Notes: a model not told the origin generated them from the sequence alone. 64,000 nt of DNA from Cyanobium sp. M30B3 (GCA_018399015.1 CP073761.1:2232001-2296000); one strand, 5' to 3'; shown: positions 9,126 to 38,290, numbered from the stretch's first letter. Program-made: numbers and translations.

Positions 9126-10288
9126 GTGAGTTGCCACACCGGATCGGCAAACAGCAAGCCCAGGTGGGTCCTATCCGCCGGAGCAGGCAGGTCGACACTG
9201 AGGGGGGCTCGCGATGGAAGCGAGGCCGAGAGCCGGGGCGGGGGTGCCGCCGAAGCCCAGACCTCCTCATCGGCAAGCAGGGCCGCCAGACCGCGACGGC
9301 GGGCCTGCAGCCACCCCAGATTGATCCACTCCTCATTCACTGGCCAGCCCTTGACCGAAGGCGGATCCAGCACCGGCTGGCCCATGCGGGGAAGGTGGCT
9401 GCGGGCGATCTGCAACGCGTCGGGATGACGACTTCCCAGCAGGGCCAGGCTGCGGGTCACCACCAGAATCGGCTCCTGCAGGCGCTGCCCTTGGGCAACA
9501 CGGGCTTCTGGTGAATCCAGAAGGGCCTGCATCAGCCAGGGCAAGGAGAGATCCCGGCGGCGCCAGTCCTCCGCCAGCGCGTTCAGCCGGGATACCGGCG
9601 GCAGCCCCCCCAGCAACGTGCGCCAGACGCGACCGCAGATGTGACGCGCGGTGGCGGGCTGAGCCGCCAGCCAGGCCGCCAGGCTGGGGCCATCGAAGGC
9701 AGCAGTGCGACCCAGAATGGTTTTCAAGCCCGGATCATGGCGACCGGGGTTGAGCACCAGGCGCCCCTCCCGGCTGAGCTGGTAACCGCTCAACGCCCGG
9801 GCCGCCTCTCGCACATCGGCCTCACGGAAGTGGCCCTCACCCACGCTGAACAGCTCCAGCAACTCCCTGGCCAGGTTCTCGTTGGGCCTGGACCTCTGAT
9901 TGCTGGGGCCGTTGAGGGAGATCTGCAGCGCCGGATCGAGCACCATGGCGGCGAGCAACGCACCGAAGCTGCCATTGAGCTTTGACTCGATCGTGGCCAA
10001 CTGCAGCTCCAGCAAGGCCGGATGACCCAGCTGGCGCCAACTCACCGGGAAAATGCCGCTCCATAGCTGCACCAGCCGGGCTCGCTCGGGTTGGGGACCA
10101 AAGGCGAGCCGTTGCAACCAGCGGTCCTGGAGTGTGCGGCCAGCCTCTCTCCGGCAGCGCGCCCTGGCGGGACGATCCTCAATGGTGCTGCATGGGTTGA
10201 CGTTCAAGGCCAGCACGACAACGCCTGGAGTGGATTCAATCCTGGTAGCAAAGCAAAGCGCTGCCAACATCGCCGGCCCGCGGGCCAT
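9122..10288 (-). CDS. DUF1800 domain protein, N-terminally short
   Basis: 388 residues at most. The core DUF1800 signature [19 protein letters not shown] (about residues 140-158) with the following helix [12 protein letters not shown] is clear, as is DPPSVKGWP near the C terminus. The usual N-terminal region of about 100 residues that starts this family is not recognisable. The first ~45 codons ([13 protein letters not shown]...) look unrelated, and the start lies only 31 bases from the divergent gmd start. The gene may therefore have lost its 5' end at the edge of the glycan region, or may start further in. Translationally coupled to the DUF1501 gene. Confidence 0.8.
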
Positions 10289-10319
10289 GCTTGGATCGGT
10301 GCCAGACAGGATGTTCTGT

Positions 10320-11486
10320 ATGCCTCACGACCTTGAGACAGGCCCCGGAAAGACAGCTCTGATCACCGGCATCACAGGCCAGGACGGCAGCTACCTGGCC
10401 GAACTGCTGCTGGAGAAGGGCTACAGCGTGCACGGCATCAAGCGGCGGGCGAGCAGCTTCAACACCACGCGGATCGATCATCTTTATCAGGATCCCCACG
10501 AGCAGGACCAGCGGCTGACGCTGCACTACGGCGACTTAACGGACAGCACCAACCTGATCCGGATCATCCAGCAGGTGCAGCCGGATGAAATCTACAACCT
10601 GGGTGCCCAGAGCCACGTGGCGGTGAGCTTCGAGGCGCCGGAATACACGGCCAACAGCGACGCGCTGGGCACGCTGCGGATCCTGGAGGCGGTGCGGATG
10701 CTGGGCCTGAGCGGCAAAACCCGCATCTACCAGGCCAGCACCAGCGAGCTCTATGGCCTGGTGCAGGAGATTCCCCAGAAAGAGAGCACGCCGTTCTATC
10801 CGCGCAGCCCCTACGGCGTGGCCAAGCTCTATGCCTACTGGATCACGGTGAACTACCGCGAGGCCTACGGCATGTATGCCTGCAACGGCATTCTGTTCAA
10901 CCACGAATCACCGCGGCGGGGCGAGACCTTCGTGACGCGCAAGATCACCCGCGGCCTGGCGCGGATCGATGCAGGCCTGGACGAGTGCCTGTACATGGGC
11001 AACCTCGATTCCCTGCGCGACTGGGGCCACGCCCGGGATTACGTGGAGATGCAGTGGCGGATGCTGCAGCAGGAGGGGCCACCGGAGGACTTCGTGATCG
11101 CCACCGGCCGGCAGGAGAGCGTGCGCCGCTTCATCGAGCTCACGGCCCTGGAGCTGGGCTGGGGAGCGATCCAGTGGGAGGGCGAGGGTGTGAACGAGAC
11201 GGGCCGCCGCAGCACCGGCGAAGTGGTGGTGCGGATCGACCCGCGCTACTTCCGGCCGGCTGAGGTGGAAACCCTGCTGGGGGATCCGAGCAAGGCCCAC
11301 GCCAAGCTGGGCTGGCGGCCCACCACCACCCTGGAGCAGCTGGTGGCGGAGATGGTGGAGCACGATAAGGAGGAAGCCCGCAAGGAGGCGCTGCTGCGGC
11401 TGAAGGGCTTCAAGGTGGTGGGCTCGATGGAGAATCCGCCCACCAACCCCCTGACGGTGGAACAGGCCCGGAGCGGGCAGGGTTGA
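10320..11486 (+). CDS. gmd: GDP-mannose 4,6-dehydratase
   Basis: A 388-residue extended SDR enzyme. [19 protein letters not shown] binds NADP near the N terminus, [14 protein letters not shown] supplies catalytic Ser/Thr-Glu residues, and [20 protein letters not shown] contains the YxxxK pair. [19 protein letters not shown] is a strong Gmd signature. It converts GDP-D-mannose to GDP-4-keto-6-deoxymannose, the first step to GDP-L-fucose. The start at ATG 10320 has AGG at 10308-10310 nine bases upstream; an in-frame ATG at 10311 lacks that spacing. The C-terminal ~30 residues extend slightly beyond the usual family end. It overlaps fcl by one base (TGATG). Confidence 0.96.
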
Positions 11487-12493
11487 TGGCCGCCCGCAAC
11501 CTGCTCCGGTCCGAAGACCGCATCTACGTGGCCGGCCACCGCGGCATGGCCGGCAGCGCCATCTGCCGGGCCCTGCAGCGTGCTGGCTATGGTCAGATCC
11601 TCACGGCAACGCGCGCCGATCTCGATCTGCTCGATGGTCCGGCAGTGCAGCACTGGTTCGCCGAACATCAACCCACGGTGGTGGCCCTGGCGGCGGCCAA
11701 GGTGGGCGGCATTCAGGCCAACAACACCTACCCGGCGGATTTCCTGCTCGACAACCTCAAGATCCAGAACCATGTGATCGAGGCGGCCTGGCGCAGCGGC
11801 GTGCGCCGGCTACTGTTCCTTGGCAGCAGCTGCATCTATCCCAAGTTCGCCGCCCAGCCGATCCGGGAGGAGGCCCTGCTCACCGGCGCCCTCGAGCCCA
11901 CCAATGCGTGGTATGCCCTGGCCAAGATCAGTGGCATCAAGCTCTGCCAGGCCCTGCGCCTGCAGCACGGCTTTGATGCCATCAGCCTGATGCCCACCAA
12001 CCTCTACGGCCCGGGCGACAACTACCACCCCGAAAACAGCCACGTGCTGCCGGCCCTGATCCGCCGCTTCCAGGAGGCGGCGGACAGCGGCGCCGCCAGC
12101 GTGACCTGCTGGGGCACGGGCACACCGCTGCGCGAATTTCTGCACGCCGACGACCTGGGCGAGGCCTGTGTGTTCGCCCTGGAGCACTGGGATCCGTCGG
12201 CGAGCGGTGCCCCCTGCGACACCAAGGGCGCGCCACTGGCGTTTCTCAATGTGGGCACGGGGGTGGACCTGAGCATCCGCGAGCTGGCCGAGGCGGTGGC
12301 CGCCGCCACCGGCTTCGGGGGAGAGATCCTCTGGGACAGCAGCAAACCAGACGGCACCCCCAAAAAACAGCTGGACGTGAGCCGGCTGGTAGAGCTGGGT
12401 TGGCGGGCCCGCATCCCCCTGACCGAGGGACTGCAGCAAGCCGTTGCGGCCTTCCGCCAGGAGCGGGCAAGCGGCGTGATGAGGGCTGCATGA
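11486..12493 (+). CDS. fcl: GDP-L-fucose synthase
   Basis: A 335-residue SDR enzyme. AGHRGMAGSAICRALQRAGY binds NADP, LFLGSSCIYPKFAAQPIREE contains the catalytic Ser, and YALAKISGIKLCQALRLQ contains YxxxK. Other family motifs are PTNLYGPGDNYHPENSHVLP and WGTGTPLREFLHADDLGEA. It performs epimerisation and reduction of GDP-4-keto-6-deoxymannose to GDP-L-fucose. ATG 11486 overlaps the gmd stop (TGATG), so gmd-fcl form a two-gene operon feeding fucosyltransfer. A TTG at 11483 would add only one residue. Confidence 0.96.
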   Translation: MAARNLLRSEDRIYVAGHRGMAGSAICRALQRAGYGQILTATRADLDLLDGPAVQHWFAEHQPTVVALAAAKVGGIQANNTYPADFLLDNLKIQNHVIEAAWRSGVRRLLFLGSSCIYPKFAAQPIREEALLTGALEPTNAWYALAKISGIKLCQALRLQHGFDAISLMPTNLYGPGDNYHPENSHVLPALIRRFQEAADSGAASVTCWGTGTPLREFLHADDLGEACVFALEHWDPSASGAPCDTKGAPLAFLNVGTGVDLSIRELAEAVAAATGFGGEILWDSSKPDGTPKKQLDVSRLVELGWRARIPLTEGLQQAVAAFRQERASGVMRAA

Positions 12494-12774
12494 ATGCAGA
12501 CGACAAGGCTAAAGGATGAAGATTGCCCAGACCAACAAAGCCAATGCCAGACGATCCAGGAACCAGGAGGCGAGGGCAAGAAACAAGCTTTGGCGAGTTT
12601 GGCCTGATTTCCGACATACAACGCTCATCCCACTCCGCTGAATTGAGAAAGCGAAGATCCGCTGATTAACTCGGCCGACAAACCACTGCAATCCCAATAA
12701 AAACACTACTGAAAAGCCTAAAAGGACAGCAAAGGCGAACAAATTGCAGACGACTGGCCAAGAAAGAATAAGCT
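12494..12774. other. AT-rich gap between fcl and a sulfotransferase gene
   Basis: About 280 bases of clearly lower GC than the gmd-fcl side, marking the left edge of the AT-rich stretch. It holds a possible 77-codon frame on the minus strand (12509-12742) that would start with TTG and encode two hydrophobic segments (FAVLLGFSVVFLLGLQWFV and LASWFLDRLALALLVWAIF). There is no ATG or clear ribosome site, so I do not call it a gene. No terminator hairpin is evident. Confidence 0.4.
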
Positions 12775-13800
12775 TCAGTTGCGTTCATCGCTTTCGCATG
12801 CCTTGACGGCAGCCGCCAGTTTATTGTCGAGCTCCAAGATTCTTCTTTCTTGACAGGCTAGCAATTTAAGCAACAACATGTTGAGGGCATCTTGGTCGAT
12901 GACAAAGCCTGAATCAGATATGTCATCATATTGCAATGGCGGTTCGCCACATGACTCAAGAATACGATTCAACCCTTTCAGGTCTTCCGCAGAATCATTT
13001 CGAACCCACTCGATGTCTTCAGCAGTAGGAAGAAGGCTGTTCATCAATGATTCGGAACTGATGACAGGATGCAAATTCTGCGGACGGAAGCACCGCAGAA
13101 GCTTTGGAGGTGTAGGCGATGTTGACGCGTTGTTAAAAATCGCCCTCGCAAGCAGCTCTTCGGGCTTGAGTCTCTTGTTGGCTCGAGGCTTGGGACACGC
13201 ATGATTAATCCCTAGAACCGAAAAGAAGTCTCCAACAATATCATCACGACAGTCAAAGTTACGCAATCCGACATCCGGACCAAATGACACAAGCCACGGG
13301 CTTACATCAGCCATGAATCGGATAGGCCTCACCTTAAAGTACTCTCGGTAAGACTTCACCCTACCGCTGTAGGCTTTATTATTGATACCCCATTGCTCGT
13401 AAGCCGATCGCGACCACGACCCATGCTCTCTCACATAGCATATAATTTTAACCGTATATCCAAGCCCTTTGATAGCTGTCAATGCTGGAATGAATGAGTC
13501 GTGCCTTCCAAACATCCACTCATTGCTCCAAACCAAGACATTCGCCCCATCATCAGCAGTCAATTCACTCGAGAGAACATTAAAAACTTCATTTTGTTGC
13601 CTCAACGCATCAAGATCAAAAAGATCTACTGAGCCCTCGGGGTATTGCCATGAATATGTTTTCTGTCCATTTTCAAGCACCATGCCAAGATATCTAATCT
13701 TATGCTTTGCAAGGATTTGCTCATTCTCCGTGAGGGCCGCTTGAATGGAGGAAGTTCCGGTCTTACCAGCACCAATGTGCACAATCAGTGTTTTCGACAT
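12775..13800 (-). CDS. Sulfotransferase-like protein (ST1)
   Basis: A 341-residue protein of the bacterial P-loop sulfotransferase type. The 5'-phosphosulfate loop is HIGAGKTGTSSIQ at residues 7-19. The probable 3'-phosphate site is YVREHGSWSRSAYEQW, with an Arg and a downstream Ser spaced as in the family. Members transfer sulfate from PAPS to carbohydrates or other acceptors in the cytosol; the acceptor here is unknown. There is no signal peptide or membrane helix, and the C terminus ends in a charged coiled-coil-like helix. The gene is AT-rich compared with flanking core genes. It shares long matching blocks with the sulfotransferase at 17714-18820 (IRYLG, AYxQW, SGxVK, REWF/REYF), so the two are likely paralogs. 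Confidence 0.82.
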   Translation of the reverse strand: MSKTLIVHIGAGKTGTSSIQAALTENEQILAKHKIRYLGMVLENGQKTYSWQYPEGSVDLFDLDALRQQNEVFNVLSSELTADDGANVLVWSNEWMFGRHDSFIPALTAIKGLGYTVKIICYVREHGSWSRSAYEQWGINNKAYSGRVKSYREYFKVRPIRFMADVSPWLVSFGPDVGLRNFDCRDDIVGDFFSVLGINHACPKPRANKRLKPEELLARAIFNNASTSPTPPKLLRCFRPQNLHPVISSESLMNSLLPTAEDIEWVRNDSAEDLKGLNRILESCGEPPLQYDDISDSGFVIDQDALNMLLLKLLACQERRILELDNKLAAAVKACESDERN

Positions 13801-14752
13801 GATTCAATGCAGTGCAATGGGGTTAACTACAGGGATTATGATTAGTGCATGGACTTGAGCCTGGATCTCGAGACTTGGATACCAATTCCAGAAAGCGAAG
13901 AACATGGAATGAATGTCAGACATTTGCGGTTGCGGTTGCAACTCTTACAACCACAATGAAGCGAGGAGATTGACTTGTCAAGTGCTTTGTCCCATCGCAG
14001 ATAGAATGACAGATGGGTAACACCATGCAGCCAGGGAATGAACGCAGGCCTATTGCCTGGGCTATGCATCTCAGGGGCGCTGGGAAACGGCTGGTTTGGG
14101 TGCCTTAAACCCTCTAGCTGCCAGCACCCGCACTGGTTCAGCAGCAACGCGAACAGCTGGCGTGTGCTGGCGATGCAGCTGCGGTAAAATAAGCTCGCTA
14201 TGGTTGGCTGCTGAACTGACCAAGTCATGACTCGGAGCGAAGATGATTCAGTGCGCATTATGGTGTTCCAGTTTGTGAACTTGTCGCTCGTACAGGTGGT
14301 TTCAATCCCAGTTGTACTGTTGCGAACGGGGTGCATATGAGCTACTGAGATACGATGTCTCCTGAGAGCAACTGATCCCAACTCCGTGTCTCTTGAGGAT
14401 GAGGCGCAGCCAACCTTACAGCTCATCCTCAATAGTCTGCAAAAGCAACCGAGCAGGAGAGATGATGGGCGCTGTAAATGCCTAAAGTGCAATCCTGGTG
14501 CGCCTTCTGTGAAAGCTAATACGCTACAGACTGATCATCTCTGACCCGCTGCAGCGCGGCTAATCGGGTGCTTCCATGCAAGCTGAAGATTCAGATCCAA
14601 GATCGTCGACCATTGAACTTTTTCTCATGCATCAAGGCTTAAGCTAAGGACTACCCTAGGACCATCAACCAATGAATGCATTCAAGAGAATGAACCGGAA
14701 AAGGCCAGGGACATTCCATATTTGCAACACCAACTGCCAGAGCTGATCTGAA
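13801..14752. other. 952-base stretch without a recognised gene
   Basis: Moderate GC. The only long open frame is 13842-14492 on the minus strand (216 codons), whose translation is rich in Ser, Cys and Arg and matches no family I recognise. It could be chance, an antisense frame of a decayed gene, or a novel protein. The last ~100 bases should contain the promoter and leader of the plus-strand sulfotransferase starting at 14753. No insertion-sequence ends or tRNA were seen. Confidence 0.4.
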
Positions 14753-15829
14753 ATGACTGTAATCATCCATGCGGGCATGCACAAGACTGGAAGTAGTTCC
14801 ATTCAAAACCACTTCAACACAACTACTTACCCGAGCATAAAGTATGCAAGATGGAAAGAGCCTAATCATAGCGGCATGTATGCGCTTCTAACGAAAGACG
14901 ACCAATCATCTCGGGAGCATTTTGCATTCAAACAGCGCGGCGAGAAGTTCCTCGAGCAATTACCAATGATGAGGTCACAGTGGCGTGAGTCATTGATCGA
15001 AGACCTCGAGACATTAGGAGATAGAAGACTGCTTTTTTCGGCCGAGCTGATATCAGCTCCACCTGGCAGGCCCTGGCTCGAGAGATTTGCTACGTTCTTG
15101 CGTCAATACACTGACTCAATCGAAGCAATTGCCTATGTGAGATCGCCGAGGTCTTATGCAGTAAGTACATTCCAGCAGCAATTGAAAGGCCCCAACTATC
15201 GCGAACTGAAGCTAGAGTTTCTCTGGCCAAAATACAGAGAAAGGTTTTCACAGCTTGATGACATAGTTGGTCGTTCTTCAGTAACCCTTAGACATTTTTC
15301 TCCTCAAGTGCTGCTTGGGGGAGATGTAGTACAGGACTTTGCAAATATTATTGGCATAACACTGCAGAGCTATTCTCGTCATCAATTAAACACAACATTA
15401 AGTGCCGAGTCAACTGCATTATTGTATGTACAACGACGTCTCGGTCAAGGCTTCGTAGGTGGATTTGATGGAGCCTTTAGAGTGAACAGGATCTTTCTAG
15501 ATTATTTGCGTCCTATCGGGAATGGCAAGCTATATTTCGATGACAGGGCTTGGGACGATGTTGAAAATTTCAATAGACCCGACCAAGCCTGGATGGAAGG
15601 CAGGTTAGGGCAAGATTTAGCTGAACATCCGCCTGCTGACGTGATTAGTATCTCGTCAGAGCAAGAACTCTTTGATGTAGCAGTTGCGAACCAAGATGCA
15701 CTTTATGCTGCGGTTCCTGAGGAAGTGCACTGCAACCATCACGACCCACTGAAACGGATAACCCTCACTTTGGATGCATTGCAACAGCACTGTCTACAGT
15801 CTATAAAGCAGACAAGGCAGGCGTCCTAG
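14753..15829 (+). CDS. Sulfotransferase-like protein (ST2)
   Basis: 358 residues. The N-terminal P-loop HAGMHKTGSSSIQ (residues 6-18) is the 5'-phosphosulfate site, and a YVRSPRSYAVSTFQQQL segment near residue 130 provides the Arg/Ser 3'-phosphate site. The family uses PAPS to sulfate small molecules or glycans. It is the only one of the four sulfotransferase-like genes here on the plus strand and is flanked by long gaps, so it is probably its own transcription unit. AT-rich with no leader or membrane helix. Sequence outside the motifs differs from the other three, so it probably has a different acceptor. Confidence 0.82.
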   Translation: MTVIIHAGMHKTGSSSIQNHFNTTTYPSIKYARWKEPNHSGMYALLTKDDQSSREHFAFKQRGEKFLEQLPMMRSQWRESLIEDLETLGDRRLLFSAELISAPPGRPWLERFATFLRQYTDSIEAIAYVRSPRSYAVSTFQQQLKGPNYRELKLEFLWPKYRERFSQLDDIVGRSSVTLRHFSPQVLLGGDVVQDFANIIGITLQSYSRHQLNTTLSAESTALLYVQRRLGQGFVGGFDGAFRVNRIFLDYLRPIGNGKLYFDDRAWDDVENFNRPDQAWMEGRLGQDLAEHPPADVISISSEQELFDVAVANQDALYAAVPEEVHCNHHDPLKRITLTLDALQQHCLQSIKQTRQAS

Positions 15830-15941
15830 ACAGCATTGTACTCAAGCCCAGAGATTAATCACAGACAGCTCTTTTGTTAGCAGGATGAGCAAGCAAGCTT
15901 TACTTCGCTCGCAAACAGATCCATCTATATATTTACAAGAA

Positions 15942-17015
15942 TTATTCTATTTCGTGACATAACTTTTCATTTTTTTTCAGCATTGAAGTTTTGTTGATCC
16001 AGATAGACGCAACAAGTTCGGAAAGCTCAATCTCATAGTCTTCATAAATGATGTCGCCATTTACAGGTCTTTCAGCTACAGACTTAGGCCTTGACCATAG
16101 CTCTTGCCCCGAATCTGGAAAGAATTCCTCTCGAATATAGCGAATTGATGGTTCATAGTACTTGTCGAATGCTTGCAAGCATTGAACAGACGGCAAGTAA
16201 CGGGGTGCATGCTGGAAATAGCTAGCAACAAACTTGTTGAGATTGGTACGTATGGGATTCACACGTAAACCCAAATGTGTGGGTATCTTTTTGTTTAACA
16301 ACAGCATGAGCCTCAGCGCGGGCAAAGACAGAGATTCATTCGCCTTTGCAGGACGAGAAAGTGAACTGGTTTTGAGATCATTTCCTTTAAAGAAATCAGT
16401 GACAACATCACCTCCATAGAGTTTGGCGCGATCGTACAGTCGCACATCTAATTGATGTCTTGGGACGACCGAGAGCCAGCGTTGAATAATCTTCTTGTGA
16501 TTACAATTATTTTCATATCTTGCTGGGTCAATGAGTAGACTTGACGGAGTGGCTCCATTTTTTATCCGAGTACTAAATGAGGCATACGCCGTATAAGCTG
16601 GATCCCTAAGATAGATAACAACATTGATATCATCGTAATAATGCCGAAGAAATGTCCAGAGATTAGCAACTTCACTGCCGGAAGTGAGCCGTGACTGGAA
16701 ATGCTCCGAAGAAATAATCCATTTTTTATAGTCGGTGTCGCGAAGCTGGCTGATCCATTTTTGTTTGGTAACACGCTTAAACTTCAGTTTTTCTTCTTTG
16801 TCGTTGCAAAGACCCATATTTTTATCGAAGCGGTCCTGTTTGTTGGCTGCTTGAAAGACATAAGCAGCACTCCTATGATTAAAACGGCCGAATATATCGG
16901 GAACGTAGATGGAGTGCTCTGCTAGTGTCGCTCGATTTATCGCCAGAGCCTCCTGAATGGCAGTAGTTCCCGTTTTTTCCGTTCCAATATGCAAGACAAG
17001 ATTTGGCTTTCTCAT
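15942..17015 (-). CDS. Sulfotransferase-like protein (ST3)
   Basis: 357 residues. HIGTEKTGTTAIQ at residues 9-21 is a near-consensus PAPS 5'-phosphosulfate loop, and YLRDPAYTAYASFSTRI near residue 135 is the 3'-phosphate motif. WIISSEHFQSRL before it is typical of this bacterial family. A cytosolic carbohydrate sulfotransferase is the most likely role, but the acceptor is unknown. The gene is AT-rich and lysine-rich at the 3' end (TSMLKKNEKLCHEIE), clearly unlike the GC-rich core genes and suggesting acquisition by transfer. It is convergent with ST2, with about 110 AT-rich bases between the stops. Confidence 0.82.
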   Translation of the reverse strand: MRKPNLVLHIGTEKTGTTAIQEALAINRATLAEHSIYVPDIFGRFNHRSAAYVFQAANKQDRFDKNMGLCNDKEEKLKFKRVTKQKWISQLRDTDYKKWIISSEHFQSRLTSGSEVANLWTFLRHYYDDINVVIYLRDPAYTAYASFSTRIKNGATPSSLLIDPARYENNCNHKKIIQRWLSVVPRHQLDVRLYDRAKLYGGDVVTDFFKGNDLKTSSLSRPAKANESLSLPALRLMLLLNKKIPTHLGLRVNPIRTNLNKFVASYFQHAPRYLPSVQCLQAFDKYYEPSIRYIREEFFPDSGQELWSRPKSVAERPVNGDIIYEDYEIELSELVASIWINKTSMLKKNEKLCHEIE

Positions 17016-17713
17016 AGACTCCAGAAAAGAAAGTGATGCTATCGCACTTTGTAGAGTGATTATTTATTTAGACGATGCCTTTAAGTCTTGATTCATAAAT
17101 AATACAGAGCTTTGCTGGCAATGGCAAGACTCACACTTGGAGTAAAGGGCAAGAGCTTGGGAGAAGGGGGATGGAACTGCATCAGGATTGATTGGCAGCG
17201 AAGACGTCATGAACGAGTCGAAGAATACTTGACGCCACGAACTGGACAATGACGACACTATGCTCAATGGCGCTGATGCCGAGCAATGCTAGAGCGACTG
17301 GTAGACTTGAACACAGAGCGCCATGGCAAGAGGAACAAGCATCCTGCGGGGAAGTCTTCAAGGAGATTAGCTGCTGAAATCGATCGATCAGAAGAGGGTA
17401 GCTGCGGCAGCAGTCCCTGGCCGAGGGGCACAGGGGAGGAGGGAAGATCGGATGAGAAGTCAACGCTGGCAAGCATCACTGAAACTGGGATCAATTCATC
17501 GATATACTGCGACCCTCACCTAATCATTATCGGATAGCAGAGCACCACGTCGGCAAGTTGTGTGGTCTGCAGCATCTGGATTCGCTCATGAGCCTTGATT
17601 GCAAACTGGTCATCAAAATCAATCACAACGGTGTCGTGAGGAGGCGATGATCGAACGCAAATCACTCTGCCAATAGAGGTACTGGTCGGGTGAGACCTTG
17701 ATGATCAGGAAGC
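17016..17713. other. Gap between ST3 and ST4 with likely gene debris
   Basis: About 700 bases with no intact gene. On the minus strand a reading of about 60 codons (about 17700 down to a TGA at 17516) looks protein-like if one frameshift near 17640 is allowed: SPDQYLYWQSDLRSIIASS continues into DTVVIDFDDQFAIKAHERIQ and then LADVVLCYPIM. The rest (17016-17500) contains only short frames of unconvincing composition on both strands. This looks like remains of an older gene inside the AT-rich stretch. Confidence 0.45.
17516..17700 (-). pseudogene. Possible frameshifted coding remnant
   Basis: Two adjoining minus-strand frames join across roughly 17640 to give a coherent hydrophilic-hydrophobic pattern (YLYWQSDLRSIIASS, then VVIDFDDQFAIKAHERIQML and ADVVLCYPIMI) before a TGA. 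The first frame stops soon after the junction. There is no start codon and the fragment is too short to assign; its place between two sulfotransferase genes suggests it came from a surface-polysaccharide gene. Called only because both frames read like protein on the same side of one indel. Confidence 0.3.
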
Positions 17714-18820
17714 TTATGGACAATCAGGAGGAGTGCCTGGGTGCGCGCTGCTTTCCAGTTGCTGTACTCTCTTTGAAAGTTGATTCAAGCGTGCATTTTG
17801 GCTCTGGCATATATCAAGAAGAATGCTTATCAGCTCGAGAGTCCGTGTGTCTTCATCTACTATGTAGCTATCTAGATCTATAAGGTTTTTCGGCGGAATA
17901 AGCGGCTTTTGCTTCGCGTCTAAAAAACGAATATTAGCATAACCATTGCTGCTCAATAACTCATTGATCTTTTGCGCTTGCTTGTCACAGTGAGTTGCAA
18001 ACTCTTGCTGAATCCATTCCATATCAATGAATGGTTTCATTCTATCCTCTAATAGTGTATTGATTGCATTCGAAGCCAAAGATTTTTCTGCAAATACAAA
18101 TCGAGAAGGAGGACTCCTGCCATCTTGAAGTCTCTGATAGAGAAAACGCGCAATCAACGCCATAGAGTCGTCACTCTCGTTTGTCCTAGTATTATCAAGA
18201 GCAACGCATAGTGATGAGGGCAGATTAACTTCTCTGAACAAATCTCCAAGTCTTGATGTTGGACTGTCTAGTTGGTGGATGACCAGCCTATGCGTATAAG
18301 GAGAATCAAGCCACCGACTTAACTCTTCTGCATATCCAGGAGGCTTAGAATAGAACCACTCACGCACATTTTTGACACCCCCTGAGTTGGTTTTATCTTT
18401 TAGTGCCCATTGTTGATATGCAGAAAAGAACCACTCGTGAGGCCTGCGGATCACCAATAGGACAACTATATTTATACCATGGCTGCTAAGCGTCCTGATG
18501 GCAGGCTCAATGAAGGAATAAGTTCCAAATATGCTCTCATTGGAAAGCAGAAGATCTTTGCCAGTATTACGCTCAAACGTCTCAAGAATAATGCTGGTAA
18601 ATTGATCTATTGGGTCCCGAGAACCTAGCCAGCTGTGCCACCCTCCAGTGCGCTGCCAATCATGCTTTCTCGCATTGGAGGCATACTCAAGGTTGAGTCC
18701 GAGATACCTGATTCCATTTTCCTCAAGCTCACTTGAACGTTCTCTTAACACATGCTGAATACTGGACGAGGCACATTTAGCCATTCCAATATGCACAAAA
18801 AGATTGCTTGGCAGTTTCAT
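17714..18820 (-). CDS. Sulfotransferase-like protein (ST4), divergent P-loop
   Basis: 368 residues. The P-loop position reads HIGMAKCASSSIQ (residues 10-22), keeping the Lys but replacing the usual Thr-Gly after it with Cys-Ala, as some sulfotransferases do. The 3'-phosphate motif is VIRRPHEWFFSAYQQW. Matching blocks with ST1 (IRYLGLNLEY; AYQQWALKDKTNSGGVKNVR) indicate a common origin with the gene at 12775-13800. The C terminus forms a probable coiled coil (LNQLSKRVQQLESS). The start ATG directly follows the TAG of the GT4 gene (18820/18821), so it is co-transcribed with the two glycosyltransferases upstream. This links sulfation to glycan assembly. Confidence 0.8.
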   Translation of the reverse strand: MKLPSNLFVHIGMAKCASSSIQHVLRERSSELEENGIRYLGLNLEYASNARKHDWQRTGGWHSWLGSRDPIDQFTSIILETFERNTGKDLLLSNESIFGTYSFIEPAIRTLSSHGINIVVLLVIRRPHEWFFSAYQQWALKDKTNSGGVKNVREWFYSKPPGYAEELSRWLDSPYTHRLVIHQLDSPTSRLGDLFREVNLPSSLCVALDNTRTNESDDSMALIARFLYQRLQDGRSPPSRFVFAEKSLASNAINTLLEDRMKPFIDMEWIQQEFATHCDKQAQKINELLSSNGYANIRFLDAKQKPLIPPKNLIDLDSYIVDEDTRTLELISILLDICQSQNARLNQLSKRVQQLESSAHPGTPPDCP

Positions 18821-20110
18821 CTAAGCAGCTGAAGAATTTACAGCAAGATCTAGTTTTTCGCGGTCTACCAGAAGAGAGTAGATTTTCTTGTGGGATAATG
18901 CACAGGCTTTGGCAGTAAATGGGCGGGGTATCTGATTCGATAGAGCCTGATGAAGGGATGAGTTTCGGATCGCTTTTTCGATGAGCATTGCCAGTGAGGT
19001 TTCACTCCCTGTCGTGAACGTCAGTCCACCACGGCCATCAATCTTCTCAGCAGTGCCGCCAATATCGCTGCCAATCACCGGCCGGCCGTAAAACAAGGCT
19101 TCTTGAATCACAACTGGTGAATTTTCCCACCAAATTGAAGGAACGACAACCCAGTCATTCTCTTGCATCAGCGTTTCCAGCTCCGTCTGCCGATAAGTGC
19201 CTCGCAAAACCACTCGATCGCGTACCTTCCCATGTAGGAAGTTGAATTCATCCTGGAACTCCTGTGGCTGCTGCTCCAAATTAGCACCATAGATATTGAC
19301 AAGAAAATCCTTAATTCCCCGATCTTGGAGTAGGGATACCGCTTTAAGTAACACCAATGGACCCTTGTAGAGGTTTAGCTGGCCAAAATAACCAAAGCGG
19401 TTTAGATCAGCCGAATAGCTAGTGGAAATCTGCTCCCGCCTACTCAAGTTAAACTGAGGAGGCAAACCATTTTCGAGCAACACAAACTGTCGATGGTCAA
19501 TCCCGCAGCAGCGGTAGCGATCAATCAGGAATTGACTGGGACTGATTAAGGCATCGCAACTCTCAAGGATTGTCTTAATGTAATGGTGCCTCAAAAAGAA
19601 ATCAGCAGTATTCCAGTCTGGGTAGCACATTGAGCAAGCCAGAGGAGTAGAGCGCTCGCATAACTTATGTTGATGCGTGGTGACCATTTGACCATTATGT
19701 CGACAGAGAGCGAGATATTCATGCAAGGTCACGAGAACACGCGCATTTGGACAAATGCTCTGTAGCAGAGGGATGATATCAATTCCGAAATGCACATAGT
19801 GCTGCAGATGAATCACATCGGGTCGGATGTGATCAAGAAGTCGTTGCAGACTTCGCTTCATGCTCGGGATATGGGAATTACTGAAGCGAAGCCAGTCGCA
19901 ACTGGTACCAATCAAGTACTCACGATCACTACCGTCAACACTGCGCAGCTCAGCATGGGCCAGTACTCCCTTACTGGTGTGCACTGCAGCCAGGATCCAA
20001 GCTTGAATTTCAATGTGGCTTTGCAGCTCACGGAACAAGGAGAACGCCGCATTCTCGGCACCTCCTATGGAAAACTGTTCGTGGCCATGAATCAGGAAGA
20101 GCACTCTCAC
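18821..20110 (-). CDS. Glycosyltransferase family 4
   Basis: 429 residues with the GT-B fold pattern. The N-terminal MRVLFLIHGHEQFSIGGAEN holds the acceptor-side Gly-Gly-Ala-Glu loop, and a central DVIHLQHYVHFG follows. The C-terminal donor domain contains FGYFGQLNLYKGPLVLLKA and VVPSIWWENSPVVIQEALF with the E-x7-E type motif, then GRPVIGSDIGGTAEKI. It transfers a sugar from an NDP-sugar to a growing glycan; the sugar cannot be predicted. A short Cys cluster (CERSTPLACSMCYP near residue 160) occurs in several polysaccharide GT4 enzymes. It overlaps the upstream GT2 gene by four bases (20107-20110) and abuts ST4, so the three form an operon. Confidence 0.9.
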   Translation of the reverse strand: MRVLFLIHGHEQFSIGGAENAAFSLFRELQSHIEIQAWILAAVHTSKGVLAHAELRSVDGSDREYLIGTSCDWLRFSNSHIPSMKRSLQRLLDHIRPDVIHLQHYVHFGIDIIPLLQSICPNARVLVTLHEYLALCRHNGQMVTTHQHKLCERSTPLACSMCYPDWNTADFFLRHHYIKTILESCDALISPSQFLIDRYRCCGIDHRQFVLLENGLPPQFNLSRREQISTSYSADLNRFGYFGQLNLYKGPLVLLKAVSLLQDRGIKDFLVNIYGANLEQQPQEFQDEFNFLHGKVRDRVVLRGTYRQTELETLMQENDWVVVPSIWWENSPVVIQEALFYGRPVIGSDIGGTAEKIDGRGGLTFTTGSETSLAMLIEKAIRNSSLHQALSNQIPRPFTAKACALSHKKIYSLLVDREKLDLAVNSSAA

Positions 20111-22335
20111 TGCGGCACCTCACTACGCTGCAATCGCTCGATAGCACTACACCAGCGCTGGTGATGTGTGATTGCATTGGCAGCAATGATCTTGATTTTC
20201 ATGCCATTACTGGAAGTAGCCAGATCTACGCTTTGACGCTCAAGATGATAAAAAGTTGCCGAATTGTCAACCAAAACAGGCAAGCCCTTGTCGCGTAGCA
20301 TTAAACATAAGTCTGAGTCCTCGAAATCGCCAACAATATAATGAAGACCAAAACCACCAAGTTGCTTGAAGGTCTCTGTTTCCAGCATCATGCAGGCAGC
20401 TGTGACGGCCTCCATCTCCACGAGTTGCAGAGATTCGCTTTCGGATGCTGGCAACTTCACCCCTTTGAAGGGGTGTTCATTCAGCCAGACTCGGCTCAAT
20501 TCCCCATCCAAATCCGTTTCCTTCACAAAGGCCATACCCAGGTGCTGAATAGCGCCGTTATCAAACAGCAACATCGCACCGAGCGCCCCTATCTGGCCAG
20601 GATGTTGCTGCATTGCCCTCAGCATCAGCTCCAGGCTGTCGTCCTGGGCGGGCAGCACATCCGAGTTGAGCAGCAACAGCAGAGGCGCTTTGGCGAATTC
20701 AACTCCACGATTGTTGGCACCGGCAAAGCCAAGATTATCAGGATTAATGACCAACTCAAATGGCATGGAATAGAGCGTATGACATCGCTTGGCAAGGGCA
20801 AGGCACTCCTGTTCAAGCCGAGGGTCGTCGAGCACATAGATCAGCTGCAACTGGACCCGGTCCGGGCCCTTCCTCCGCTGCCAGGCGTTGAGCCAGTTGA
20901 GCTGGTACTCCATGAAGTCAATCCGACCGTAGAGTGGTATCACCATGCTCAGCTGGGGATTGACCGGTTGGGCGCCAAATAGCTTGTGCTGGGGTGGGCG
21001 CTGCAGCTTGCGAGATAAAGCATCACACCAGAGATCCCGCGCCCGGTGTAGCAAGTTAGCCGACACGAGGCGACAAGGTGCCTGGATCGCGGAAGCCAGG
21101 ACCGCCTTTACATGATCGCTAGAAAGTTCGGCACCCTGAAGCGTACGTCGCAGACAGAATTGATGACCGTTGGCCAGCACCGCAAACAGCTCCGCCGCCT
21201 CACCGGCCTGCAGCGGTACTGCCTCCTCCGAAGCGGCGACATGTGTGAGGGTGAGGCCAGCATGCAGGCCTGCATCGCCGCCGCAGCGCGCCACCACCTC
21301 CGCAAGGTCGGGCCTGTCGGTGTAGACAGCATGACCCAGATTCAGCCGCCACACCCGCTCGCCCCGCACCAGACTCAGCTCGCGCAGCTGGTGACCCGGA
21401 TCCACCAGCCAACCTTGCACCTGCAACACCCGCCCGCACCGGCTCAATCGGATGGCATCGATCGCCGCCACCAGTCCATCGCTGTTGGCTCGATCCACAG
21501 CATGGCTGAGCTGATCGCGGGGATTGCTCCCCAGCCATTCCAGGGTGGAGAGAACCCGGCCGAGCAGATCCAGCTCACCAAGGATGCTGCTGGACTGTGG
21601 GTGCCTACGCAGCAGCTCCAGATTGCTTGCCGCGTCATGGGGCGCGCCGGCGTTGAGATCCAACCAGGCCAGCGCCACCAGGGCATGCAAGCAGGCATCG
21701 TGGCTCTGGTGTTTGGCCACCAGAGCGCCCAGCTGCTCCCGGGCTCTGCCGATCTCGCCCAACCCCCTGCAGCTCAGCCCCAGGAACAGCACGCTCCATG
21801 GCAGCAGGTCGCCCAACGGCTCTGCCGCAAAGGCCACAGCTGCAAGCAAGGGCACCGCCACTTCAAAACGCTCATGCGCATAAGCCCAGTGGCCCAGGCC
21901 ATAGGCTGCCGCCACAGGCAGCTGAGAAGCCAGTGGCTCCACAAGATCGTGGCCCAGTCCCTCCAGAACGGTCTCAAACCGCCCCAGTTCGGCCTGGGCT
22001 CTCAGCTCAGCCAGCTGCTCCCTGTGCACCACTTGGGCCTCGCTGCTGCAAGCTGAAAAAAAACGTCGCTGAATCGGGCGGGGGGTGCCCGGTGTGATCC
22101 CATCTCGCGACGATGAGGAGCCGGGGACTTTGGAACTGGCTTGAGCGACTGGCGCGGGGCGGAGAGTCGGGTCTGGATGAGCGACCCGACCCTGTGGGTT
22201 GGCCGAAGTCTCCCTCTGCTGATCTCCCCTGATGCTCTGGTTCAGCTGCTGCCAAAGGCGAGTCTGCAGCGGATCCTCCAGCAAGCGCCGCTGAAGATCG
22301 TGCCGGTGGGGGGTCTGCACAATCACTGCCGGCAA
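20107..22335 (-). CDS. Large GT2 glycosyltransferase with N-terminal helical region
   Basis: Up to 742 residues. The C-terminal third is a GT-A/GT2 domain: QLSMVIPLYGRIDFMEYQLN starts it, NPDNLGFAGANNRG and LLLLNSDVLPAQDDSLELM (metal-binding D-x-D position) follow, then GDFEDSDLCLMLRDKGLPV. Before it lies an alpha-helical repeat-like region (about residues 95-270) and a beta-rich segment with VQGWLVDPGHQLRELSLV seen in other cyanobacterial surface-glycan transferases. The first ~90 residues are low-complexity. The start is uncertain: TTG 22335 is used, with GTG 22326 next; no ATG is near. It heads an operon with GT4 and ST4. Confidence 0.85.
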   Translation of the reverse strand: MPAVIVQTPHRHDLQRRLLEDPLQTRLWQQLNQSIRGDQQRETSANPQGRVAHPDPTLRPAPVAQASSKVPGSSSSRDGITPGTPRPIQRRFFSACSSEAQVVHREQLAELRAQAELGRFETVLEGLGHDLVEPLASQLPVAAAYGLGHWAYAHERFEVAVPLLAAVAFAAEPLGDLLPWSVLFLGLSCRGLGEIGRAREQLGALVAKHQSHDACLHALVALAWLDLNAGAPHDAASNLELLRRHPQSSSILGELDLLGRVLSTLEWLGSNPRDQLSHAVDRANSDGLVAAIDAIRLSRCGRVLQVQGWLVDPGHQLRELSLVRGERVWRLNLGHAVYTDRPDLAEVVARCGGDAGLHAGLTLTHVAASEEAVPLQAGEAAELFAVLANGHQFCLRRTLQGAELSSDHVKAVLASAIQAPCRLVSANLLHRARDLWCDALSRKLQRPPQHKLFGAQPVNPQLSMVIPLYGRIDFMEYQLNWLNAWQRRKGPDRVQLQLIYVLDDPRLEQECLALAKRCHTLYSMPFELVINPDNLGFAGANNRGVEFAKAPLLLLLNSDVLPAQDDSLELMLRAMQQHPGQIGALGAMLLFDNGAIQHLGMAFVKETDLDGELSRVWLNEHPFKGVKLPASESESLQLVEMEAVTAACMMLETETFKQLGGFGLHYIVGDFEDSDLCLMLRDKGLPVLVDNSATFYHLERQSVDLATSSNGMKIKIIAANAITHHQRWCSAIERLQRSEVPQ

Positions 22336-22853
22336 AGGGACAGCCCAAGGCTGGACGGAGGTTTCATCACTTTAGAGCTTATCCTAGCAGTCTTGATCGT
22401 CCAGAACGAGTTGATCCCATCGACCAGCTCTATCGCCTCATCGGCTCGGTTTGCGGAGCCAGACGGATCAGACATGTTGAGAAAAAGCCCCACAACCTTC
22501 CATCGAAAACGGCTAAAATGTAGTGCAGCATAGACAATACGGCATAGACAAAACGGCATAGACAACCAGGGCAACGTGGCAACATCGCATCAAGAACAGC
22601 TTGTGAACCACGTTCAGCATTTACCAAGATTAACTTGACAAAGGCAATCGCGGGACATTTACTTTGAGCCGAAACAGCTTAAACCTTGGGCCTGCACAAA
22701 AACGAGGCTGTTGCGTTGCTGTCAGTTGTCGGCCAGCGCGGCCGAATGGAGAGCATGGTTCTTGCTGGCAAAGCACAAGCACTGGGCAGCGTCATCAGCC
22801 ACCCCAGCCGCTGAGCGTTGATCAACACCAGCAACCTCTCTGGTCAATGCAGT
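22336..22853. other. Gap between two GT2 operons
   Basis: 518 bases without a convincing gene. It contains the 14-base triple repeat at 22528-22569. A minus-strand frame starting at about 22474 (MSDPSGSANRADEAIELVDG) runs 50 codons into the start of the downstream GT2 gene; it could be a small leader peptide but has no family match. The region should contain the promoter for the GT2-GT4-ST4 operon. Lower GC than the flanking GT2 gene at 22854. Confidence 0.45.
22528..22569. repeat. 14-base tandem repeat, three copies
   Basis: GCATAGACAATACG, GCATAGACAAAACG and GCATAGACAACCAG sit head to tail at 22528-22541, 22542-22555 and 22556-22569. The first ten bases are identical in all three. They lie about 190 bases upstream of the GT2 gene start (minus strand). 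Three phased copies of a short word upstream of an operon could be a regulator-binding array, or simple slippage. Confidence 0.8.
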
Positions 22854-24662
22854 TCAAGCCGTACCGGTACGGACCTGGTCGTACTCCAGATCAACCAGCA
22901 CCGCCAGCAACTGGCGACGATCATTTGAATGCACCGACTGCACCCATGGTGAACTGCGCAAGTCGATCACCATACAATCCCTTAGCAGCGGCTCTGGGCA
23001 GTGCAGCACAACCGGATTAGGACCAGGTTTGAGCACCTGACAGAGTGGATCTCCAGGCGAATTCAGTTGAATCACCAGCGTGGGCTTGACCGCCATCGGC
23101 GCTGCCTCGGGCAGATAGAGAACCAGGCGGAGGGCATTCATCCGATCTTCCCCTACTCGCAGCATCTGGATCACCAGTCGGCTCGGTGTCTCCAACCAAC
23201 CATCCGGATGAAGCCCGCTCGAGCTGGCCAGGATGCGCAGATCATCCCGGTCCCATCCCGGTAGTGCCGGGAGTTGCATCGCTTGCGGCTGCTGCGGCAG
23301 CTCTGCGGCTCTGGCCGCCAACCGCCAGTTGGGTCTGGCCTGATGCAGTCGCATGGCGATCTCCCCAGCGGATCCCTCCAGTGCTCCCACCAACACCACC
23401 TCAGCTCCAGGCGTCCCAGGCAGCTGCTCCAGCAACCAGCATTCCAGACCTCCCCACCTCAGGGGCAACCCCAGCACATCAGCCTGCGGGCTATCCCCCA
23501 TTGCCAGCACCCCCATACCCTTCTGGCGACAGGTGGCAATCGCCTCGGCCGTGGGTTGCAGCAGCAGCGCCAGCGGCCGGCCCAGCAACTGCCGATCGGC
23601 CGCCAACAGCCAGGGGTGGCCCGTCGGTGGCTGCTCCCGATCCAACGTGGTTCGCCACTGCTGCTTCAGCTGCTCCAGGTTGCGCAGCTGATGGGCCTTG
23701 AGGCCCTGCTCAGTACTCCGCGAGTGGCTCAAGCCCTCCAGATGCATCACCCGGGCGGCCGGTTGCACCCACACCACCTGCCCGGCTTGGCGTACCCGCA
23801 GGCACAGATCCGTGTCCTCTGCATAGGCCGGCTGGTAGCGGGGGTCAAACCCCTCCAGCTCCTGCCAGAGCTGCCGGCGGATCGCCAGGGCGCAGCCGCT
23901 CACGTAATCACACTGGCGCTCGTAGGCCATGGCGAAGCCGTACTCCGGCGGCGCGTTGCGGCCGTGGTTCCACACCTGCCCATCGGCCCACACGATGCCG
24001 CCCGCCTCCTGCAGCCGGCCATTGGCGCTCCACAGGGCCGCCCCCACCACACCCACCTGCGGCTGGCGCGCAAAGCTGCCGGCAAGCCGGTCAAGAGCGT
24101 GATCGCCCACCAGCACGTCGTTGTTGAGCAGCAGCAGCAATTCCCCCCTTGCGAGCGCAGCGGCGCTGTTGCAGGTGGCCAGAAAGCCCTCGTTCTGCTC
24201 GCTGCGCCAGATCCGCAGCCAGGGCAGCTGGTGTTCAAGCTGGATGGTGGCATCGCTGGAGGCGTCGTCGGCCACGATCACCTCAAAGCCCGTGCCATTG
24301 GCCATCGCCACCAGGCTGCGCAGCGCATTGAGCGTGATGGCCCAGTGGTTGTGCACCGGAATCAGCACGCTGATCAGCGGTGGTTCGTGGCGATCAGCCG
24401 CCACCAGGTGCGCAGGCGCCGGCAGCGCCTCCAGGCCCCGCAGCGCCAGGCCGTAGTAGAGGAGCCGAAACGCTCCCTCAGGGTCGTGGCGCAGACTGTT
24501 CTGCACCTCGCTCCAGCCCGGCCCCCCCGGTAGCAGGGCGGCGATGTCGAGATCGGGGAGGGCGGACAGATCACCCATCCGAGCGATGGCGTCCGGCCCT
24601 TCCCCCAGGCAGTGGGTCCAGTGGCGCAGCAGCGGCAGCCAGGCCAGTGGGTCGCGAGCCAT
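22854..24662 (-). CDS. GT2 glycosyltransferase with C-terminal beta-rich domain
   Basis: 602 residues from ATG 24662, chosen because GAGGAG ends six bases upstream; an in-frame upstream start at 24689 would overlap the methyltransferase. The GT2 domain (about residues 90-330) has ISVLIPVHNHWAITLNALRS, EVIVADDASSD, GELLLLLNNDVLVGDHALDR (DxD-like position NND), GGIVWADGQVWNHGR, YAEDTDLCLRVRQAG and ARVMHLEGLSHS. The C-terminal ~120 residues form a beta-sandwich-like domain (LRLVLYLPEAAP, LKPGPNPVVLHCPE, VQSVHSNDRRQLLAVLVDLE) that may bind sugar or membrane partners. It closely resembles the GT2 part of the 29607-32612 protein. It follows the methyltransferase by ten bases. Confidence 0.9.
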   Translation of the reverse strand: MARDPLAWLPLLRHWTHCLGEGPDAIARMGDLSALPDLDIAALLPGGPGWSEVQNSLRHDPEGAFRLLYYGLALRGLEALPAPAHLVAADRHEPPLISVLIPVHNHWAITLNALRSLVAMANGTGFEVIVADDASSDATIQLEHQLPWLRIWRSEQNEGFLATCNSAAALARGELLLLLNNDVLVGDHALDRLAGSFARQPQVGVVGAALWSANGRLQEAGGIVWADGQVWNHGRNAPPEYGFAMAYERQCDYVSGCALAIRRQLWQELEGFDPRYQPAYAEDTDLCLRVRQAGQVVWVQPAARVMHLEGLSHSRSTEQGLKAHQLRNLEQLKQQWRTTLDREQPPTGHPWLLAADRQLLGRPLALLLQPTAEAIATCRQKGMGVLAMGDSPQADVLGLPLRWGGLECWLLEQLPGTPGAEVVLVGALEGSAGEIAMRLHQARPNWRLAARAAELPQQPQAMQLPALPGWDRDDLRILASSSGLHPDGWLETPSRLVIQMLRVGEDRMNALRLVLYLPEAAPMAVKPTLVIQLNSPGDPLCQVLKPGPNPVVLHCPEPLLRDCMVIDLRSSPWVQSVHSNDRRQLLAVLVDLEYDQVRTGTA

Positions 24663-24672
24663 CAGCTGCTCC

Positions 24673-25560
24673 TCAGCGCTCGGCCTCAATCACCAGCACG
24701 CCCGGCAGATCCGAGCCCAGAACCCCATGCTTCCAGCTGGCGATGTGGTGCATCCGGGTTTCCGAGAAGCCGGCGGCCTGCAGCTGCTCCAGGATCTCCC
24801 AGCCCGGAATCCGGTACACCAGCGAGCCCTGCTTGGGGCGCACTGGATCGCCGTGGTAGTCGGGTTCGCCGCTCACCTCTGCCTCACCGGTTGCGCGGTT
24901 GTAATTGGCTTTCACAATCGATTCATACTGGCCGAACGCAAGCGGGCAGGTGGCCAGAAGGCGCCCGCACGGCCGCAGCACCCGGGCAATCTCGCGGAAC
25001 GCCAGCTCCAGATCCTGGACGTGCTCGAACAGCTCGTTGCAGAGCACCAGATCAAAGCTGGCATCGCTGAAGGTGAGAGCACAGAGGTCCTGGTGGGGTA
25101 TGCCGGAATAGACCTGTTCGGCATCCTCCAGGAATTCACTGCAGATCAGCCGTTGCTCCCCCAGCTGCCGCCGCAGCCACAGGGCAAAGCCGGTGAGTGC
25201 CTCAGCCAGGAAGATCTCCTGCTGGCCTAAACGCTCGAGTGTTCCATACAGCTGCTCAAGCACGACCAGCACGGCCCGGTTACGGCTCAGCAACCCATGG
25301 GCAATCAACGACTCGCGATAGTTCGGCCCACCAAAATGAATCGCCTCCGGCGGGATGTGCTGGGCGGTGAAGGGCTCCAGCAGACCAAGGTTCCTGCTTA
25401 CCCGCACGCACTCGTCCAGCCGGCTGCCCTGCTGCAGCAGCACCGTGAGCTGTGGCTGAAAGGCGCCCAGATCGGCGTAGACCTGGCGAAGGTTGTGCAG
25501 CGCCAGCACCTCTTCGCCAGGCATCGGAGATTGCCAATCCCTTACCTGAACCACTGCCAT
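24673..25560 (-). CDS. SAM-dependent methyltransferase (type 11-like)
   Basis: 295 residues. The C-terminal half shows the class I methyltransferase end motifs DASFDLVLCNELFEHVQDLE (motif II/III) and FREIARVLRPCGRLLAT, followed by YRIPGWEILEQLQAAGF. A classic glycine-rich motif I is not obvious, as is common in surface-polysaccharide methyltransferases of this group. It probably O-methylates a sugar or glycan end, given its place between a TPR-like small gene and a GT2 gene on the same strand. Stop and next start are ten bases apart, indicating one operon. The substrate is unknown. Confidence 0.8.
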   Translation of the reverse strand: MAVVQVRDWQSPMPGEEVLALHNLRQVYADLGAFQPQLTVLLQQGSRLDECVRVSRNLGLLEPFTAQHIPPEAIHFGGPNYRESLIAHGLLSRNRAVLVVLEQLYGTLERLGQQEIFLAEALTGFALWLRRQLGEQRLICSEFLEDAEQVYSGIPHQDLCALTFSDASFDLVLCNELFEHVQDLELAFREIARVLRPCGRLLATCPLAFGQYESIVKANYNRATGEAEVSGEPDYHGDPVRPKQGSLVYRIPGWEILEQLQAAGFSETRMHHIASWKHGVLGSDLPGVLVIEAER

Positions 25561-25606
25561 ATCTGCGGTTGGGTAATAACCTTAGGCACAGCCAGCCATC
25601 CGCTCT

Positions 25607-25882
25607 TCATCCCAGCACCAGACGTTGCAATGCCTGCTGCAGGCATCGACGCAGCACCTGCCGCTGCATCGCCTGCACCTGCTCGACCCGCGCCCCCTGC
25701 CGCTTGGCCTGCTCAAACGCCAGGGCAGCCTGCTGCTGCTGCTTGCCCTGCTGAGGCCCCGGCTCGATCGTGAGCAGCAGCGCCGCCCCGTAGCGCAGCC
25801 ACTCCGCAGGGTCGTGGCTCTCCAGTGGATGGGCGTCGATCACTGCCTGCCAGTCACCCCGCTCGAATGCCTGCTTGCTCAT
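25607..25882 (-). CDS. Small helical protein, TPR-like
   Basis: 91 residues from ATG 25882, which has GGAAGG a few bases upstream; a frame start at 25909 would add nine residues. The sequence (MSKQAFERGDWQAVIDAHPL, DPAEWLRYGAALLLT, AALAFEQAKRQGA) fits one or two tetratricopeptide-like helix pairs with a Gln-rich linker. Similar short proteins occur next to glycosyltransferases in picocyanobacteria. It may be a scaffold; no catalytic motif is visible. First gene of the operon with the methyltransferase and GT2 gene. Confidence 0.65.
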   Translation of the reverse strand: MSKQAFERGDWQAVIDAHPLESHDPAEWLRYGAALLLTIEPGPQQGKQQQQAALAFEQAKRQGARVEQVQAMQRQVLRRCLQQALQRLVLG

Positions 25883-26345
25883 GAACCCTTCCATCCTGCA
25901 GGAGATCATTATCGCCAGGATTGCTCCTCATCCACACTGCCCTCAGCAACAAACACAGCCTGAGCATGCAGACCGGTCGCGACCGGCTCAGGGAGGCCAG
26001 GGAGCGTTGAAAGCGTCGGGGGCCGACATGGGAGTTGCCGCAGCCTTTGCCCCTGCAAGCATCTGAGCAAGGTTCGCGGCCGCGCGGCATTCAGGCGCAG
26101 CCAGAAATCACCTGCCCCAGCAGCAAGAAAGCAGATGAATTTCAGGTTTCGTCACCATCCAATACCGAGAGATCGACCCGTGCCCGACGACACTGCTACC
26201 CAGCGGTATTGATGATGACAACACAACACCAAGATGAATGCAGGCAATGGCCGATATTATAACGACTGTCCTCTCAAAACAAAGCAACCAGTCGTGTCGG
26301 TCTATCTGTGTTCTAAACATACCGCATATTCTTAAGGTTATAGCC
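25883..26345. other. Promoter-bearing gap between GT61 and the TPR-like gene
   Basis: About 460 bases of lower GC. On the minus strand a perfect TATAAT lies at 26261-26256, but no good -35 sits at 17 bases, so this is a suggestive promoter only. It would give a leader of about 370 bases before the TPR-like gene. No gene of credible composition is present; short plus-strand frames here have no family features. Confidence 0.4.
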
Positions 26346-29581: not shown

Positions 29582-29606
29582 AGCAGAACTCCGAGACCGT
29601 GTCAGG

Positions 29607-38006: not shown

Positions 38007-38290
38007 TGCCCGACGACGACGACCCCCGCCAGCACCCCTGGTGGCAGCACCTGCCGGCCGAACGTCAGCAGATCACCCTCTGGGGCCGCCGCCGCCGACT
38101 GCTACAGCAGCTGCTGTTCAGCCGCCGTAGCCAGCTGTTGCTGATGCTCACCCTGCTTGTCCTGCTCACAGCAGGCCTGGCCGTTGCCGGAGCCGGCGGC
38201 TTCAGCCTGGCCCTGCTGCTGCCGTTGCTGCTGTTGCCCGCCCTGGCCGCCCTCAGCTATTGGCTCACCTGGCGGGAGTTTCACCATTAG
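38006..38290 (+). CDS. Small two-helix membrane protein of the secretion operon
   Basis: 94 residues. A charged N terminus (MPDDDDPRQHPWWQHLPAER) with an Arg-rich stretch precedes two hydrophobic helices (QLLLMLTLLVLLTAGLAVAG and SLALLLPLLLLPALAALSYW). ATG overlaps the HlyD stop (TGATG), so it is the last gene of the operon starting at the GT2-GT4 fusion or PPIase gene. Its function is unknown; an assembly or tuning subunit of the exporter is possible. It overlaps the end of the convergent 38287-39519 gene by four bases. Confidence 0.75.
   Translation: MPDDDDPRQHPWWQHLPAERQQITLWGRRRRLLQQLLFSRRSQLLLMLTLLVLLTAGLAVAGAGGFSLALLLPLLLLPALAALSYWLTWREFHH

Follow-up and report, generated by a model that had tools for sequence, protein, structure and literature searches.

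A family of very probable PAPS sulfotransferases, nearly invisible to Pfam, forms variable gene arrays in picocyanobacteria

Four genes in an AT-rich part of the Cyanobium sp. M30B3 genome belong to one divergent protein family which, judging from the sequences of its members, very probably consists of PAPS sulfotransferases. The main interest of this family is that it is nearly invisible to Pfam and forms variable arrays in picocyanobacteria. The genes, called here ST1 to ST4, lie in the window that we analysed, i.e. a stretch of 64,000 nucleotides (GCA_018399015.1 CP073761.1:2232001-2296000). We consider it likely that their products are PAPS-dependent enzymes, most plausibly placing sulfate on sugar residues of a glycan which the neighbouring glycosyltransferases would build and which would be secreted or displayed at the surface. 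The four genes are as follows.

12775..13800, minus strand: ST1, putative divergent PAPS sulfotransferase, sister of ST4 (uninterrupted reading frame and motifs)
14753..15829, plus strand: ST2, putative divergent PAPS sulfotransferase, a separate lineage of its own (reading frame, AlphaFold2 model)
15942..17015, minus strand: ST3, putative divergent PAPS sulfotransferase of a widespread subfamily (sub-threshold Sulfotransfer_3 match, related stretches, tree)
17714..18820, minus strand: ST4, putative divergent PAPS sulfotransferase (reading frame; family profile A4, ST4 first, matching 3rnl at E 3e-9)

A first-pass annotation of this DNA had placed four sulfotransferase-like reading frames at 12775-18820, and all of them were found there, at exactly the coordinates given and with intact frames coding for proteins of 341-368 aa each. 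They are indeed mixed in orientation, with ST2 on the plus strand and the other three on the minus strand. The P-loops quoted near the N termini are present in all four proteins, and the Arg/Ser motif proposed to contact the 3'-phosphate can be recognised as an R-x7-S pattern which is conserved in family alignments.

Standard domain models are of little help in recognising these proteins. When compared with Sulfotransfer_1 and Sulfotransfer_3, the families by which the first-pass annotation had expected them to be placed, and also with Sulfotransfer_4, none of the four reaches the Pfam cut-off, and the same is true for NCBIfam models. In single-sequence Pfam searches ST3 scores 21.7 bits against Sulfotransfer_3 (cut-off 27) and ST1 scores 16.1 bits against Sulfotransfer_4 (cut-off 22.8), while ST2 and ST4 give not even a sub-threshold sulfotransferase hint; in a family alignment of 49 sequences, not one protein has a Pfam match at E<=1e-5. 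The assignment to sulfotransferases holds nonetheless, on the strength of family profiles, of motifs and of one particular family member. Iterated profiles, built with the use of congener relatives and started from any one of the four proteins, pull out the other three, and the pair ST1 and ST4 aligns at E ~1e-27 with 27-30% identity. Family profiles compared with all PDB sequences give as the top match 3rnl, an Alicyclobacillus sulfotransferase (E 3.2e-9 and 4.1e-9), followed by heparan sulfate 3-O-sulfotransferases (E 0.01-0.07) and almost nothing besides. The family profile is needed here, as ST4 used as a single sequence gave no significant sulfotransferase match among solved structures. 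In the 49-sequence alignment the H, G, K (the 5'PSB lysine) and Q of the N-terminal loop (HxGxxK...Q) are invariant, as are the E of an S-x-E motif and the R of R-x7-S, with the S conserved in at least 90%. A 24-sequence alignment, in which the loop H, G and K are again invariant, gives a similar overall picture, and the R-x7-S pattern, with Ala permitted for Ser, occurs in 124 of 131 family rows. We found no family members with a known biochemical function; one member, encoded by the congener G012, scores 25.1 bits against Sulfotransfer_1, above the cut-off of 22, and thus ties the family to known sulfotransferases.

The family is broadly distributed. A genome scan with an alignment of the ST3 subfamily yielded 333 related stretches from many phyla; as this query was narrow, taxonomic breadth is best known for that subfamily. 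The 80 stretches which were kept come mainly from Alpha- and Gammaproteobacteria, with some picocyanobacteria, and 18 of them hold two or three family frames within 13 kb, some of these probably being fragments. At least one family member is present in 87 of 300 sampled genomes of the window's taxonomic family. The Cyanobium genome itself encodes at least four further members as well as about seven canonical Sulfotransfer_3 loci. AT-rich islands near canonical sulfotransferase-like genes were also noticed elsewhere in this genome (L073 at 8-15 kb, L201 at 1-7 kb and L203 at 7-18 kb). In another genome (G362, locus L041) an open frame of about 1089 aa, inspected by eye in translation, appears to be a fusion in which the family domain is joined by another sulfotransferase-like domain and by additional sequence.

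The surroundings of the array are rich in genes for glycan synthesis, and the features which matter most are listed below.

10053..11486, plus strand: GDP-mannose 4,6-dehydratase, GMD (Pfam PF16363, E 7e-153; the true start is probably downstream of 10053)
11483..12493, plus strand: GDP-L-fucose synthase, GMER (Pfam Epimerase), conserved left border of a variable island
12494..43186, no strand: stretch of ~30.7 kb missing in congener G008 (blastn synteny), holding the ST array, several glycosyltransferases and a probable type I secretion set
18821..20110, minus strand: GT4-type glycosyltransferase (Pfam PF00534, E 7e-19), coupled to ST4 and GT2
20107..22335, minus strand: GT2-type glycosyltransferase of 742 aa (Pfam PF00535), first gene of the GT2-GT4-ST4 operon

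The start codon of ST4 directly abuts the stop codon of the upstream GT4 gene (TAG followed by ATG), and the GT2 and GT4 genes overlap by GTGA, so that translation of ST4 is coupled to that of both glycosyltransferases. ST1 to ST3 lie outside any operon with a glycosyltransferase. No relative of the GT2 protein was found at E<=1e-20 among the other 35 genomes searched.

The left border of the island, GMER, is 69-84% identical in congeners, and what follows it is variable. In G008 the match extends to window position 12433, is followed by about 0.3 kb (gap side L156:1380-1672) and resumes at 43187, all four ST genes being absent; in G009 the GMER junction carries 5.6 kb of other sequence before matching resumes at window position 42016. 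The border at GMER is thus variable. Integration associated with a tRNA was rejected, since the window has no tRNA, and no RNA features were found between 12.4 and 23 kb. Further inside the island there are a GT61 gene (26346-27659) and, within 29166-38006, a probable type I secretion set consisting of a PPIC rotamase, an ABC exporter with a cNMP-binding domain and an HlyD-like protein, together with a GT2-GT4 double glycosyltransferase. A 238-aa reading frame without a Pfam match coincides with a local AT-rich dip (41051-41767, GC 0.49). Of the exporters expected beside sulfotransferases and glycosyltransferases in an xss-like cluster for a sulfated EPS (Wzx/Wzy or an ABC system), Wzx and Wzy were not seen among the window genes scanned. 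To the left of the GDP-fucose genes, 6206-10288 encodes an SLC13/CitMHS-type transporter with TrkA_C domains and a pair of DUF1501 and DUF1800 proteins.

A family gene is found just downstream of GMER also in the congeners G002, G006 and G012. GMER and the family gene are separated in G002 and G006 by a gene for a canonical Sulfotransfer_4-type enzyme (Pfam was run on the G006 protein), and these two family genes are orthologues with 60% identity; the adjacency thus represents about three independent occurrences, the window included. We also observed, at L063, L165 and L166 in three congeners, a conserved pair in which a family gene and a Sulfotransfer_4-like gene are divergently oriented; the pair adjoins GMER in two cases. 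On one hand, this repeated adjacency and the position of the array beside GDP-fucose genes make a fucose-containing polymer the leading candidate for the acceptor. On the other hand, GMER is a common glycan gene and its adjacency is no proof of a fucose acceptor. More generally, a glycosyltransferase lies within ~6 kb of 50 of the 80 family loci of other genomes, in comparison to 1 of 20 random 13 kb regions, the latter taken from four genomes of the genus, i.e. from congeners and not from the organisms of the 80 loci. Among other congener family loci, however, only 5 of 11 have a detectable glycosyltransferase within that distance.

It could be argued that these enzymes act not on a polysaccharide but on small molecules or lipids, as in the tailoring of natural products or sulfolipids, since such substrates are within the range of the sulfotransferase fold and 30 of the 80 family loci lack a detectable glycosyltransferase. 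We regard this as unlikely, because ST4 shares an operon with two glycosyltransferases, family loci are enriched in such genes, one plasmid relative is located inside an EPS-export-like cluster, and no PKS or NRPS genes were found among the window genes scanned.

Under the preferred reading, namely sulfation of a glycan, PAPS would be supplied by APS kinase, whose gene is present in a single copy in the genome, so that PAPS can be made. The N-terminal HxGxxK loop is predicted to bind the 5'-phosphosulfate of PAPS and R-x7-S its 3'-phosphate, while the invariant Glu of S-x-E would be a candidate general base for the attack by a sugar hydroxyl. The array enzymes would then sulfate hydroxyls of the surface or secreted glycan built by the island glycosyltransferases, each paralogue presumably targeting a different hydroxyl or residue.

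Structure models of two of the proteins gave different pictures. The best fold match of the AlphaFold2 model of ST2 (pLDDT 81) is 3rnl, and its list also contains heparan 3-O-sulfotransferase, TPST2 and NDST. For the ST4 model (pLDDT 72), Foldseek ranks zeta/PezT toxins and adenylate or nucleotide kinases first, with SULTs appearing at E ~0.02. The latter ranking would fit an assignment of ST1 to ST4 to the P-loop kinases, whether acting on nucleotides or sugars or resembling zeta toxins, with only the general P-loop fold in common with sulfotransferases. Such an assignment seems very improbable to us, since the Walker A pattern GxxxxGK[ST] is absent from the N-terminal loops of all four proteins, the Lys occupies the sulfotransferase position, R-x7-S is conserved, and both the profile searches of PDB sequences and the fold match of ST2 lead to sulfotransferases.

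Comparable arrays occur in a sister genus. In 11 of its genomes the interval between groEL and gpmI (loci L055, L057, L069, L253-L255, L260, L263-L265 and L267) holds 5, 5, 4, 3, 2, 2, 2, 1, 1, 1 and 1 intact family genes, one of the two-gene genomes having a fragment in addition. These arrays are variable and AT-rich and occupy one fixed site. One array gene is common to all 11 genomes; its median pairwise identity is 51% (groEL 97%, gpmI 79%), and its GC3 is ~15-40 points below that of groEL and gpmI in every genome. The earlier view that four copies are unusual thus stands only mildly, given arrays of three to five family genes in relatives and the further members in the Cyanobium genome.

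The claim that the four genes are much more AT-rich than the core was borne out. The GC content of ST1 to ST4 is 0.42-0.46 and their GC3 0.40-0.48, far below those of the flanking genes (for DUF1501, DUF1800, GMD and GMER on the left side, GC 0.66-0.70 and GC3 0.78-0.89). Along the window GC falls from ~0.68 to 0.43-0.50 between ~12.5 and 20 kb and is back at 0.63-0.71 to the right of ~22.8 kb; the GT4 gene adjoining ST4 has a GC3 of 0.50. As for the long gaps and the debris that had been described, the gaps are there (13801-14752 and 17016-17713, i.e. 0.7-0.95 kb); the debris is not supported, as the family HMM and Pfam, run on read-through frames, picked up neither a recognisable relic of a sulfotransferase nor a member of another family in them. 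We also consider it very improbable that the cluster is decaying foreign DNA without a current function, which the AT-rich block and the wide gaps might suggest, since all four frames are intact with their motifs kept, the gaps contain no recognisable remnants, ST4 is still tightly coupled to its glycosyltransferases and equivalent arrays persist at one site in 11 genomes.

How the array in the window arose was approached with a careful tree and an AU test on 36 rows. A single clade of ST1 to ST4 was rejected (AU p 9e-5), and with it the origin of all four from one local expansion. ST1 groups with ST4 as its sister (support 97/88); the sister of ST3 is a protein of a Synechococcaceae MAG (L074; 95/88). 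As ST2 and ST4 are long-branched and the ST1-ST4 pair unites long branches, these support values overstate how sure the exact placements are. A phage origin was considered and rejected, no relatives having been found in phage records, viral contigs or PHROGs. Low GC alone cannot be read as a sign of recent import, because in each of the 11 sister-genus genomes the gene at the conserved position exceeds groEL and gpmI in AT content. Nevertheless, three of the four other family members in the same genome have a GC of 0.61-0.74, and import of the window array is thus still likely. The proposal of repeated acquisition is supported in part: the four genes are not one clade and congeners lack close relatives of ST1, ST2 and ST4, whereas ST1 is the sister of ST4 and the family keeps its low GC even where its position is conserved.

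One may ask, quite tentatively, whether picocyanobacteria in general possess a variable surface-coat locus in the form of such arrays, with one to five sulfotransferases that diverge fast, shifting glycan sulfation and with it strain-specific identity towards phages or grazers; we find this rather doubtful. If it were true, gain, loss and divergence of array genes would alter the sulfation pattern of surface glycans. The groEL-gpmI interval, being a fixed site with one to five copies, makes it possible to compare array content with glycan sulfation strain by strain.

In comparison to the known sulfotransferase superfamily (PF00685, PF13469, PF17784; 3rnl), the four proteins have in common the 5'PSB loop, the R-x7-S 3'PB motif, profile similarity and, for the ST2 model, similarity in fold; they differ in being too divergent for the cut-offs and in having long, variable C-terminal halves. 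Homologues of ST3 on Rhodobacteraceae plasmids (NC_009040.1, NZ_CP083559.1) show ~28% identity over 90% of the protein and, like the array, have glycan genes nearby: an NAD-epimerase in the neighbourhood or, in the EPS-export-like cluster mentioned above, glycosyltransferases, UDP-galactopyranose mutase (Glf) and an ABC exporter. Unlike the array genes they are single copies located on plasmids, and nearly all of these plasmid relatives are annotated as hypothetical protein. The groEL-gpmI arrays resemble that of the window in family, AT-richness, mixed orientation and copy number, but occupy another chromosomal site, are flanked by housekeeping rather than glycan genes and contain other subfamilies.

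A parallel in gene context is the synechan (xss) cluster of Synechocystis 6803, where two cluster-encoded sulfotransferases, XssA and XssE, accompany an EPS whose sulfation was demonstrated (PMC8205485). The survey of cyanobacterial sulfotransferases in that work used PF00685, PF03567 and PF13469, models which would miss nearly all members of the present family. The capacity of picocyanobacteria for sulfated polymers may thus be underestimated, as a family to which Pfam is nearly blind is present in more than a quarter of the genomes sampled. In both systems cyanobacterial sulfotransferases, putative ones in our case, adjoin glycosyltransferases, and compared with an xss-like cluster the window offers adjacent glycosyltransferases and GDP-fucose genes and, within the island, a set of genes probably for type I secretion.
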